Shown piece by piece: positions 38,068-43,727 of a stretch of 64,000 nucleotides of DNA. Below the pieces are notes generated by a model that worked only from the letters and a program-made list of their open reading frames with translations, did not search any database and was not told the DNA's origin. How positions within the stretch are numbered: the stretch's first letter is position 1; the number at the start of each line of letters is the position of its first letter. The position numbers were made by a program, and so were the translations under genes. Source of the DNA: Oscillospiraceae bacterium (GTDB taxonomy: Bacteria > Bacillota > Clostridia > Oscillospirales > CAG-382); the NCBI GenBank assembly GCA_015064625.1, contig SVRW01000001.1, positions 62,001 through 126,000 on the forward strand, given 5' to 3'.

Positions 38068-38994
38068 TTACTGTTCAAGCAATATTTTTGAACCGTCACT
38101 TGTGATTTTTATGCTTCCGTTAACGGTCAGATAGGTGTTTATTCCCTTGGAGGAAAGCTTGGATAAAACATCGTTAGATGCGGGATTTTTTGTTGAACAG
38201 GTAATTGCCGCATATGTTGGAGAAACAGCATTGATTAAATTTTCTGTTTCAGGATCCAACGCTCCGTTATCGGGCATCATAAGAAAGTCATGCTTGATAT
38301 TTTCTTTTGCTATAATTTCTTTTATTCTGTCAGATTTAGCATCACCTACAAATAGGAATTTATTTTCTCCATGTGTTACGCTTATCGCGGAACTATAATT
38401 ATCATCATCGGAATAATAACTTTTTTCGCAGGGAGTTATTTCAAATTTAACGTCATCTGCTTCAAATGATATAAGTTTGTCAATCTTGACAGATGATATA
38501 TTTTTGTCGGAAAGTGCTGTTGAATAATCAATATATTCAGTATTATTCTTAACGTAATTTGGCTCGTATACCGTACCTATTTCTAAGCCGTTTATAATTG
38601 CGGCAGCTCCACCAATTGATTTTTTATCAAGGTGAGTCAAAATAAGATAATCAATTTTAGAGAGTGTTTTTTCAGTAAAATAATCAAGTATCTCTTGAGA
38701 ATTATCAACATCACCGCAATCAATTAAAATAGTTTTTGAGCTTGTTCTGAACAGATAAGCATCGGATTTGCCCATTTTGAATATTCTGATCTTTAATTCG
38801 CCCGAATCGGCATATTTACCATTATCCGTTTCGGATACATCTTTTTCCTGCGATGTTGGAGCTTTGGAGATCGTATCATTGGATGAAGTGGAATAATTTG
38901 AATTTGTAGATGACGAAGTAGATTCATCACAAGAGCAAAAAAGAAGTAAAGTAATCGTCAACAATAAAAATATAGTTATAAATCTAAGTTTCAT
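38068..38994 (-). CDS. Lipoprotein with degenerate ComEC-type metallo-beta-lactamase domain
   Basis: A 308-residue protein with an N-terminal lipoprotein signal ending FCSC (C22 likely lipidated), a Ser/Thr-rich spacer (23-63) and a ComEC-like MBL domain. The frame is unmistakable: TILIDCGDVD, LILTH..IGGAAAII, ENKFLFVGDAKSD, LINAVSPTYAAITC, LSSKGINTYLT. The metal motif HxHxDH reads H121-L-D-K-K-S, the PHHG motif reads PDNG (241-244), and the last His is missing. Only H121 and D218 remain, so it is probably not an active metallohydrolase. Upstream of the deacetylase-like gene. Confidence 0.8.
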   Translation of the reverse strand: MKLRFITIFLLLTITLLLFCSCDESTSSSTNSNYSTSSNDTISKAPTSQEKDVSETDNGKYADSGELKIRIFKMGKSDAYLFRTSSKTILIDCGDVDNSQEILDYFTEKTLSKIDYLILTHLDKKSIGGAAAIINGLEIGTVYEPNYVKNNTEYIDYSTALSDKNISSVKIDKLISFEADDVKFEITPCEKSYYSDDDNYSSAISVTHGENKFLFVGDAKSDRIKEIIAKENIKHDFLMMPDNGALDPETENLINAVSPTYAAITCSTKNPASNDVLSKLSSKGINTYLTVNGSIKITSDGSKILLEQ

Positions 38995-40494: not shown

Positions 40495-42639
40495 TTAATC
40501 AAGAATATACTTAATTATAATGCCTTTTTCGTATATAACTTTTATCCACAATTTTTTATCGAAAAAGTAGTAGTCAGCCTGCCCAGAAAGATATCCACCT
40601 GAAAACTTTCCTTTGGCTATATCACCGTTAGCGTAAGTGAGTTCCCCTGCCCCGTTTTGCAGTCCATCACTAATTTCTCCAACATAAACTGAACCGTCTG
40701 GATATGTAATTTTTCCTTTTTCGTCATTCATCAATCCGTTTTCAAAGTTTCCTTCATACTTTCTTCCGTTACTCCATGTATACACTCCGTATCCACTACA
40801 AAAACCCTGAATCCAGCTGCCAGAATAAACATCTCCGTTTGAATACGTAAGAACACCATATCCATCCCGTTTATCATCGATGAAGCTTCCTTCGTATTTG
40901 TCACCGTTTAACCAGTAGAAAGTTCCTTCTCCATGTTTTAAACCGTTCAGCATCGTACCAATAAAAAGGTTTCCATCAGAATATTCGTAATTACAAAAAC
41001 CACCTGGGTTTCCGTCCGTAAATATTCCATTGATTATATCACCATTAGCGCAATATAACGTTCCTTCTCCGTTCGGTTGATTATTGTCAAATAATCCTTC
41101 AAAGTAACTTCCATCGGAATATTCAATTTTACCGTGTCCTTTATATTCACCATTTACGAAGACCCCGACGTACCTGAGCGTATTTTCGATGAAATGTTCT
41201 CCTGTGCCATTCGGGATATCATCAACGAGATAACCAATATACGTACCTCCACGCCAGAAAATTGTTCCATATACTTTCTCATCAGTAGAAGCATTCGTTT
41301 CTTCCGAAATTTGAATGGATATTGCTTCTTCTTCGTTATCATCGGGTTTTATTCCAAAGGAATCATCCTGGAAAAATATTGCAGTAAATACAACCGCGGA
41401 GAAAATAATTGCAATAATAGTCGGAATGAATATGTATAAGTTTTTACTTTTCGAGCCTTTTTTAATACCTGCGGCTTCAAATACAGCAGTTATATATTCC
41501 CTATCTTTATCGTTAACCATTTTAATTTTGCTAACGTTTTTATTTAATCTGTCCGAATTGAAAGGGAGACATACTATTCTGAATATCCAGAAGAATGGAA
41601 GGAATACAGGGAATTTTTCAAGAACTCCATATCTTCTTTTCATATAGGATAAAGACGGAAATATACGAGAAATAACGTGTGAAAGCTTTGATTTATCGCC
41701 GATTGCATTTATCGCGGCAATATCATTAGAACCATGGGTTTTTCCACGAAGGAAGTAGCTTTCAAGCAGTTTCATATCTTCGCTTTTTTCTTTTCCGAGA
41801 AAAATGCAATTAACGAGATTTCTGACGTTTTTTTCAAATTCAACCGCATTAAACGTTGCGAGTTCTGATTTAATATATGGAAAATCAAGAGAAGAAATTG
41901 TTTTCTTGAATATATACCATATGTCGAAAAGCGGTCTTATACCAATGCCAGAATCACAAAAGTGTTTGAATAAATGAGCAATGGTGAAAACGTATAAATC
42001 GTTATCTGAAAGTAAATACGTATGTTTTCTTCCGCGTACAATATTGGATTTATTCCATATATTTGAATACAAGGAGGATTTCTCAAGGTTATATCCCCAA
42101 AGTTCATGGTGAATTTCTATTATAACACCATTGCAATTTCTATAAATGTCTTGATAGCTGTTTGCTTCCGAAAAAGTTATGCCTATATCCGTTAGAACTT
42201 CTTTAGCTTGCTTTCTACATTCTCTTCGAATAAGAAAGTCAATATCACTCATTACTCTGAGTTCAGGAGAGGGATAATATCCTTGGATGACAGCACCTTT
42301 GAGAATTATAAAATCAATTCCTGCATTTTCAAATGCAGATGATATTTTTGAAAGAGCGTCGTTGCGTGCAGCACACGTAAAGAGTGATTTTTGATAGTAA
42401 TCATTCAATTTTAAAAGAAGTTTTTTATCTACGATAATATTGTTTGAATCCTGCTCAAATTTTTCCAGTGCTTTATAAAGTATACTTCCCAGCCCTTGTT
42501 CCATTGCAAGAGAGCAAATATATTTCCAATCAACACCATATGTGTCTTCGGCGAACGTTTTGCCACAGACATATGAACTCAAGATTTTTATCAATATTTC
42601 GTTTTCTCTTGAAAATGATTTTGTATCCTTGTTTTGCAT
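40495..42639 (-). CDS. Nucleotidyltransferase (NTP_transf_5-like) fused to a membrane span and MORN repeats
   Basis: A 714-residue three-part protein. Residues about 10-330 resemble the uncharacterised nucleotidyltransferase family: IILKGAVIQGYYPSPELRVMSDIDFLI has the LKG strand and the D132-x-D134 metal pair, then IEIHHELWG. KKGSKSKN precedes a single helix (401-422) and an acidic stretch follows, so the N-terminus should be inside and the C-terminus outside. Residues about 457-690 are roughly ten MORN repeats (YEGSFIDDKRDGYGVLTYSNGD and similar). A PqqD-like gene ends 27 bp upstream. The family is seen with PqqD-type proteins in peptide-modification loci, but fusion to an extracytoplasmic MORN tail is unusual. 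Confidence 0.85.
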   Translation of the reverse strand: MQNKDTKSFSRENEILIKILSSYVCGKTFAEDTYGVDWKYICSLAMEQGLGSILYKALEKFEQDSNNIIVDKKLLLKLNDYYQKSLFTCAARNDALSKISSAFENAGIDFIILKGAVIQGYYPSPELRVMSDIDFLIRRECRKQAKEVLTDIGITFSEANSYQDIYRNCNGVIIEIHHELWGYNLEKSSLYSNIWNKSNIVRGRKHTYLLSDNDLYVFTIAHLFKHFCDSGIGIRPLFDIWYIFKKTISSLDFPYIKSELATFNAVEFEKNVRNLVNCIFLGKEKSEDMKLLESYFLRGKTHGSNDIAAINAIGDKSKLSHVISRIFPSLSYMKRRYGVLEKFPVFLPFFWIFRIVCLPFNSDRLNKNVSKIKMVNDKDREYITAVFEAAGIKKGSKSKNLYIFIPTIIAIIFSAVVFTAIFFQDDSFGIKPDDNEEEAISIQISEETNASTDEKVYGTIFWRGGTYIGYLVDDIPNGTGEHFIENTLRYVGVFVNGEYKGHGKIEYSDGSYFEGLFDNNQPNGEGTLYCANGDIINGIFTDGNPGGFCNYEYSDGNLFIGTMLNGLKHGEGTFYWLNGDKYEGSFIDDKRDGYGVLTYSNGDVYSGSWIQGFCSGYGVYTWSNGRKYEGNFENGLMNDEKGKITYPDGSVYVGEISDGLQNGAGELTYANGDIAKGKFSGGYLSGQADYYFFDKKLWIKVIYEKGIIIKYILD

Positions 42640-42666
42640 AAAATTCCTTTAAAATAAGATTAAGCT

Positions 42667-42945
42667 TTAATTCATTGTTATAAACAAATTCGCATCCAAC
42701 ATAGAAGAAACAAATTCATTTATATCTTTTTTTGCCTGTTCTGCTGAAACATCGTAGTTTTCCAAAACCTTAAAGTGTGCATTTTCTATGGTCGAACCTT
42801 TTGAAAAAACATCCCAAAGGAAAGGACCAATTCCTGTAAGCTTCATCATACCATTAAACTTTGGGCAATTTTCTGAGATTGGAATAATTACAGTAAGTCC
42901 TGAAACGTTTTGCGCTGAATAATCGGGATTTGTTTTATAAATCAT
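42667..42945 (-). CDS. PqqD-like protein (RiPP recognition element fold)
   Basis: The 92-residue protein has the PqqD pattern: LTVIIPISENCPKFNGMMKLTGIGPFLWDVFSKGSTIENAHFKVLENYDVSAEQAKKDINEFVSSMLDANLF, a beta hairpin and a winged-helix core. PqqD proteins bind leader peptides of ribosomally made peptides and present them to modifying enzymes. No precursor peptide or radical SAM gene is visible within a few kb. It sits between hisJ (11 bp upstream) and the nucleotidyltransferase-MORN gene. Confidence 0.88.
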   Translation of the reverse strand: MIYKTNPDYSAQNVSGLTVIIPISENCPKFNGMMKLTGIGPFLWDVFSKGSTIENAHFKVLENYDVSAEQAKKDINEFVSSMLDANLFITMN

Positions 42946-42956
42946 ATAAATATCTC

Positions 42957-43727
42957 CTAAAAAACAGAACGTAGTTTAACTGATTCCAAAATAGTAACAC
43001 CTGTTTTTTTGATGAAATCTTTTGCTTTAGAAATAACGTTTTCGTTGTATACGTTTTCAGGTTTATGAGCATCAGCACCAAGGATTACTTTGTTCCCCAT
43101 TTCCGCAACAAGTCTAAAGAAAATCTCCTTCGGATAAGCTCTGTTATCCATTAGCCCTAACAAATTGATTTCAAGCGGAATGTCCATTTCCTTTGCGCAG
43201 ATACAGAGCTTTTTCATTTCCCTTAAATAAACGTCTGTATTTCCTGTAAAGTTAATGAGATCAGGATGAGCCATATATGTGAATTTGCCGGTTTTCAATG
43301 CTTCTATAGATTGTTCTACATATTTTTTCAACACGGATTCGTCATCTGTTGGTATATATGAATATTTTCCATCGTATTCATTATTTATGAAATGTTGTCC
43401 CAATATAAGATAATCGGGATTATAAGGTTTAATAAAATCGAGAAAATCACTAAAATGAGCAGGATAATATTCTGCTTCCAGCCCTATAAATATATCAATT
43501 TTACCTGCAAATTCTTCTTTTAAGCTACGAAGCGTGTTAAAATAATCAGAAGTATCTCCCTTTGTCATTCTGAAGTGCGAATAATATCCGTCTGGGAAAC
43601 AGTATGGAGCATGATCTGAAAAACCTAATGTTTTTACTCCATGTGAAACAGCATGTTCTATATATTCTTTTTCGGTTCCTGTTGCGTGATTACAACGATG
43701 CGTATGGGTGTGAAGATTAAAAACCAT
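42957..43727 (-). CDS. hisJ: Histidinol-phosphatase, PHP family
   Basis: The 256-residue PHP-domain phosphatase has NLHTHTHRCNHATG, GFSDHAPY, GLEAEYYP, GQHFI, MAHPDLI and GADAHKP, all expected metal ligands. It removes phosphate from L-histidinol phosphate, the penultimate step of histidine synthesis. It lies about 17 kb from the his operon and heads the PqqD/MORN cluster. TTGGAGGC precedes the ATG and a promoter lies at 43757-43785. Other PHP phosphoesterase activity is possible. Confidence 0.9.
   Translation of the reverse strand: MVFNLHTHTHRCNHATGTEKEYIEHAVSHGVKTLGFSDHAPYCFPDGYYSHFRMTKGDTSDYFNTLRSLKEEFAGKIDIFIGLEAEYYPAHFSDFLDFIKPYNPDYLILGQHFINNEYDGKYSYIPTDDESVLKKYVEQSIEALKTGKFTYMAHPDLINFTGNTDVYLREMKKLCICAKEMDIPLEINLLGLMDNRAYPKEIFFRLVAEMGNKVILGADAHKPENVYNENVISKAKDFIKKTGVTILESVKLRSVF

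Follow-up and report, generated by a model that had tools for sequence, protein, structure and literature searches.

The window, a 64,000-nucleotide stretch of an Oscillospiraceae draft genome, contains a gene for a PqqD-like (RRE-type) protein of 92 amino acid residues (42667..42945, minus strand), followed 27 bp downstream by a gene for a fused protein of 714 residues (40495..42639, minus strand). This pair had been described in an earlier note on the same DNA and was confirmed. Pfam PF05402 recognised the PqqD-like protein with an E-value of 1.7e-9 and 38.3 bits against a cut-off of 23.4. A gene for a PHP-domain phosphoesterase (HisJ-like; 42957..43727, minus strand; TIGR01856, 113 bits against a cut-off of 90.2) lies 11 bp upstream of the PqqD-like gene and probably heads the operon; any functional link to the pair is putative. 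The gene of an FAD-dependent protein is located 54 bp downstream of the fused gene. Plausible ribosome-binding sites were found at both starts, AGGAG for the PqqD-like gene and AAAGGA for the fused gene. With gaps of 11, 27 and 54 bp, the operon could not accommodate a precursor gene. Neither an HprK-like nor an S26-like gene was found at the window locus, and no structured RNA was detected near the pair using Rfam. Neither protein matched the PADLOC models of anti-phage defence, and the search for phage origin returned a single PHROG match, confined to the repeat region. A lipoprotein-like protein with a metallo-beta-lactamase domain is encoded at 38068-38994 of the window on the minus strand.

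The fused protein was divided into its parts using Pfam, AF2, Foldseek and its homologues. An NTP_transf_5 domain (residues 36-280; 41800..42534, minus strand; C31:103800-104534) was recovered with an E-value of 1.6e-45 and 156.1 bits against a cut-off of 31.2, so that both domain calls of the earlier note stand above the Pfam cut-offs. It is followed by a helical extension (residues ~300-389), a membrane helix (residues 401-422; 41374..41439, minus strand), an acidic linker and a MORN repeat domain (residues 456-712; 40504..41274, minus strand; Pfam E-value 5.4e-33, 111.3 bits), which is predicted to be extracytoplasmic. An AF2 model of residues 1-398, built with 25 homologues, reached a pLDDT of 91, and a full-length model reached 78. 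The full-length model contains the NTP domain, the helix at 401-422, a linker of low confidence and about 11 MORN beta-hairpins, where about ten repeats had been counted from the sequence. As modelled, the NTP domain is a nucleotidyltransferase fold of the polymerase-beta type. Foldseek matched it to ANT(2'')-Ia (prob 1.00, E-value 7e-4, TMt 0.64-0.69), and its other neighbours were LnuA, CCA-adding enzymes, PolX and FKRP. The MORN part matched solved MORN proteins (T. brucei MORN1) with an E-value of 1.9e-19.

The LKG strand (L113, K114, G115) and the D132-x-D134 pair are present as in the earlier note. Across 26 aligned homologues they are fully or almost fully conserved, as are E175, H177, H222, H226 and D239. 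When the C-terminal P-x-LLP segment was searched as a motif pattern, just 7 of the 26 rows matched, and any claim on this segment is therefore confined to the fused group. A profile search recovered no solved structure of NTP_transf_5, so the chemistry has to be read from remote folds and one published homologue. The membrane helix is supported by the AF2 model, hydropathy and a charge count. The lysines before the helix and the acidic residues after it predict an N-in/C-out orientation, with the NTP domain inside and the MORN repeats outside; this is the topology that had been proposed from the positive-inside pattern, and the modelled helix agrees with it.

NTP_transf_5 was present in 42 of the 63 searched genomes of the family, and its fusion to a membrane helix and MORN repeats in 9 of the 63. 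The carriers are the window genome, six genomes of genus g2, one of g11 and one of g8. The conservation across genera that the earlier note asked for was thus borne out, with the fusion in four genera and PqqD directly beside it in two. Wider sampling covered 77 NTP_transf_5 genomes of the order and 22 of the phylum; among the about 80 further ones beyond the family, no NTP_transf_5-MORN fusion was found. Part of the long NTP_transf_5 frames in these samples was fetched (the frame of G375 was left out, as the models did not recover it), and the fetched frames from outside the family carried VanZ-like, multi-TM, S26-like or other extensions, never MORN repeats. In an 83-row tree, the nine fused proteins formed one branch (support 79/87), within which the window protein grouped with those of g2 (97/77), and the two free-standing NTP_transf_5 paralogues of the window genome fell elsewhere. 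The fusion apparently had one origin. A scan of genome contigs for close relatives with the window protein as query gave no match. With three of the relatives as queries, it recovered those relatives alone. Three of the fusion relatives are gut MAGs of Clostridia/Oscillospiraceae, two of them labelled goat cecum and sheep rectum. Other proteins join NTP_transf_5 to a VanZ-like membrane part of four helices (G281, L148:2374-4095, plus strand) or to a membrane part of nine helices (G280, L147:2560-5136, minus strand). Membrane tethering in this enzyme family therefore arose more than once and is not unique to the window protein.

In three close relatives (G001, G023 and G031), the fused gene stands in a tight row of HprK-like, PqqD, S26-like, fusion and PAP2 genes with gaps of a few bases. 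The HprK-like protein of this row was recognised with a weak profile E-value of 2.4e-4. The row upholds the suggested link to peptide modification of the PqqD/HprK type. It also qualifies the statement that no HPr-kinase-like protein is visible, which is correct for the window locus but not for the close relatives, where HprK-like and S26-like genes accompany the fusion; their absence at the window is thus a local loss or dispersal. Elsewhere the window genome encodes two sets of PqqD, S26-like and NTP_transf_5 genes in which the enzyme is free-standing; one S26-like gene and two HprK-like genes stand alone. The same gene set recurs throughout the order with a free-standing NTP_transf_5, often plus ABC exporter or Wzz-like genes, and it often adjoins genes for S-layer or other secreted proteins. 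The full row of the relatives and the widespread set indicate that the window pair is a reduced version of this set. The pair is real and conserved in one family, and it is a member of a larger set common in the order.

Several loci of this kind were recorded on their own account. Genes for S-layer-homology or large secreted repeat proteins lie upstream of HprK/PqqD cassettes at L161, L166, L183 and L135, and such neighbours are a candidate hint to the class of substrate. An S26-like peptidase domain is fused directly to NTP_transf_5 in G076 (L109:2508-4160, minus strand) and in G263 (L150:2690-4180, minus strand), which supports a functional link of the two. HprK-like, S26-like, PqqD-like and NTP_transf_5 genes occur together with radical SAM genes in G022 (L134:79-5346) and in G007 (L198 with L124), the latter also with ABC exporter genes. 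Both look like undescribed peptide-modification clusters.

Thirteen sites of the enzyme, the majority of which show little or no variation in an alignment of fused and free-standing proteins, were compared among the nine fused proteins. All 13 were intact in the four proteins with PqqD directly beside them (the window genome G000, G001, G023 and G031). None of the five proteins without an adjacent PqqD retained the full set, and each had lost at least two sites. G082 carried E175K and G231D, G013 and G081 had lost several sites, and G030 and G007 most of them, including D134N in G007. The D-x-D pair alone, whose retention had been anticipated, was kept in 8 of the 9, but other active-site residues were lost in 5 of the 9, always where PqqD was not adjacent. 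A perfect split of nine would arise by chance in 1 of 126 cases by simple counting, which leaves the relatedness of the genomes out of account. From the tree, the active site seems to have been lost about three separate times. No PqqD or HprK-like match at all was found in G081, G082 and G030 (completeness 86, 88 and 100%). G013 has an HprK-like/PqqD/S26-like set elsewhere in its genome, and in G007 PqqD belongs to a different cluster.

The two halves of the protein also differ in divergence. The eroded proteins of G013 and G081 are 41% identical in the NTP half and 71% in the MORN half, whereas the intact proteins of G001 and G031 are 88% and 89% identical, respectively. The membrane helix and MORN repeats were kept in all nine. 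The site erosion and the identity gap together suggest that loss of the neighbouring partner gene is accompanied each time by decay of the enzyme half. In these comparisons of sequence, selection appears to act on the enzyme half only in the presence of its partners, the MORN half being kept regardless. Of the new facts, the most useful is that the active site apparently depends on PqqD. Together with the domains, the predicted topology, the conserved active site, the gene linkage and the single apparent origin, the decay without adjacent PqqD is what the computation itself establishes.

We tentatively prefer, at a little short of an even chance, the reading that the pair is a reduced, membrane-tethered form of the clostridial HprK-like/PqqD-like/S26-like/NTP_transf_5 set and acts as a tailoring enzyme. 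The PqqD-like protein, a binder of the RRE type, would hold a peptide or protein that probably carries a phosphoserine from an HprK-like kinase, and would present it to the cytoplasmic NTP_transf_5 domain. This domain may then transfer a nucleotidyl or sugar(-phosphate) group to the substrate at the membrane, and the membrane helix and external MORN repeats may bind a partner protein, placing the enzyme at a site of export or of the envelope. The substrate, the chemistry, the direction of transfer and the ligand of the MORN repeats are what we infer. The presentation step is drawn from analogy with PsmK/PsmN and with delivery by B1 proteins. PsmN is a nucleotidyltransferase homologue whose gene adjoins that of the kinase PsmK in a lasso cluster; it is needed for the hexoses on the C-terminal serine of pseudomycoidin that PsmK phosphorylates, and the review leaves undecided whether PsmN carries out the transfer itself (PMC9266682). 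Delivery of the precursor falls to B1 proteins of the PqqD superfamily (PMC7533575). MORN repeats are favoured as mediators of protein-protein contacts over membrane binding (PMC7725318), so docking to an envelope protein is a likelier role for them here than binding to the membrane. Searches of the literature for HPr-rel-A or NTP_transf_5 by name gave nothing useful. Against the tailoring reading stand the window locus, which lacks an HprK-like or S26-like gene and has no space for a precursor in its operon, and the restriction of the four PqqD-linked cases to two genera (NTP-half identity between genera about 30%), with PqqD retained elsewhere in G013 and G007. Its topology is a predicted one, and its chemistry comes from the remote folds and the single published homologue.

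The retention of the membrane helix and MORN repeats in all nine proteins, five of them with an eroded active site, also fits a membrane-anchored MORN ectodomain with a conserved job as an envelope scaffold. The NTP domain would then be accessory, kept in some lineages and otherwise decaying or structural. Stand-alone TM-MORN proteins of about 335 residues do occur in the family (L066, L068), one of which shares 37% identity with the C-terminal half of the fused protein. However, the window and three relatives combine a fully conserved active site with linkage to PqqD, which argues that the enzyme is under selection there, and we regard the scaffold as unlikely, though worth keeping in view. 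Transfer of a phospho-sugar or polyol-phosphate to an envelope polysaccharide, as in capsule or teichoic-acid loci and with PqqD regulatory or incidental, is distinctly unlikely. A second large NTP_transf_5 clade does lie in polysaccharide loci without PqqD, beside TagD-like cytidylyltransferase, sugar epimerase and flippase genes (L073, L074, L110), the neighbours in fold include FKRP, a ribitol-phosphate transferase, and a PAP2 gene follows the fusion in g2. But the fused group falls outside that clade in the tree and is tied to PqqD, HprK-like and S26-like genes.

The sensing of the envelope through MORN repeats, raised in the earlier note, is conjecture. In its extended form, external MORN repeats would dock to or sense an envelope partner and control, across the membrane, the NTP_transf_5 domain that modifies a PqqD-delivered (phospho)protein; loss of the partners would repeatedly leave a pseudoenzyme with a surviving receptor half. 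We consider this improbable. Still less probable is a lasso-type RiPP tailoring system with its precursor and maturation genes elsewhere in the genome. PqqD and nucleotidyltransferase genes accompany lasso clusters of Bacillota (PMC9266682, PMC7533575), and the PqqD-like protein matches the lasso PqqD chaperone models weakly, below their cut-off. Yet the lasso leader protease family PF13471 is absent from the whole 97%-complete genome, and the only full-length Asn_synthase match of the genome, about 78 kb from the pair, is a 628-residue frame that reads as an ordinary asparagine synthetase; the operon gaps also speak against a precursor. A chance fusion, assembly error or mis-called frame in this draft genome of 44 contigs can be dismissed, since the gene sits within a 261-kb contig, about 100 kb in, and eight other genomes have the identical domain order.

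NTP_transf_5 is a large family that Pfam labels 'uncharacterised', and no experimental evidence for such enzymes was found beyond PsmN. Here the enzyme is joined to a membrane helix and a predicted external binding domain. The membrane and MORN variant is new and conserved in one family; its gene set is known. The nine relatives, in which the active site was kept only with PqqD beside it, predict that the enzyme depends on PqqD. The case also suggests a role for these HprK/PqqD/S26 gene sets at the cell envelope, beyond clusters for antibiotic peptides alone.

The HPr-rel-A system consists of an HprK-related kinase (TIGR04352) with a PqqD-family partner and a nucleotidyltransferase. The pair resembles it in the kind of gene set, but membership was rejected: the window locus has no kinase, and that of the relatives scored 20.3 bits against the TIGR04352 cut-off of 200. 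A lasso peptide cluster was rejected as well, with no Transglut_core3 (PF13471) B2 protease genome-wide and no precursor in the operon. The pair is therefore filed under neither. With PsmK/PsmN of pseudomycoidin and PadeK of paeninodin it shares the theme of a kinase, a nucleotidyltransferase homologue and a PqqD-type B1 protein acting on one peptide; it differs in that its genome has no lasso B2 protein, its operon has no precursor, and its enzyme is fused to a membrane helix and MORN repeats. Two other MORN proteins of the family were observed. One joins a TIR domain to at least 16 MORN repeats (G033, L064:4724-6997, minus strand; 757 residues; Pfam TIR_2 2e-36, PADLOC TIR matches) and is thus another enzyme-type domain on MORN repeats, possibly defence-related. 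The other, from the window genome (C31, L071:4293-6890, plus strand; 865 residues), has a CxxC...CxxC N-terminus and a very long MORN array without a membrane helix. T. brucei MORN1 and the junctophilins share the MORN fold with the window protein, in which, unlike these, it is a predicted extracytoplasmic domain on an enzyme. The clostridial HprK-like/PqqD/S26-like/NTP_transf_5 cassettes are like the window locus in gene families and in the order of the pair, and differ in that their NTP_transf_5 is free-standing, an S26-like gene is present and ABC exporter or Wzz-like genes often lie between.
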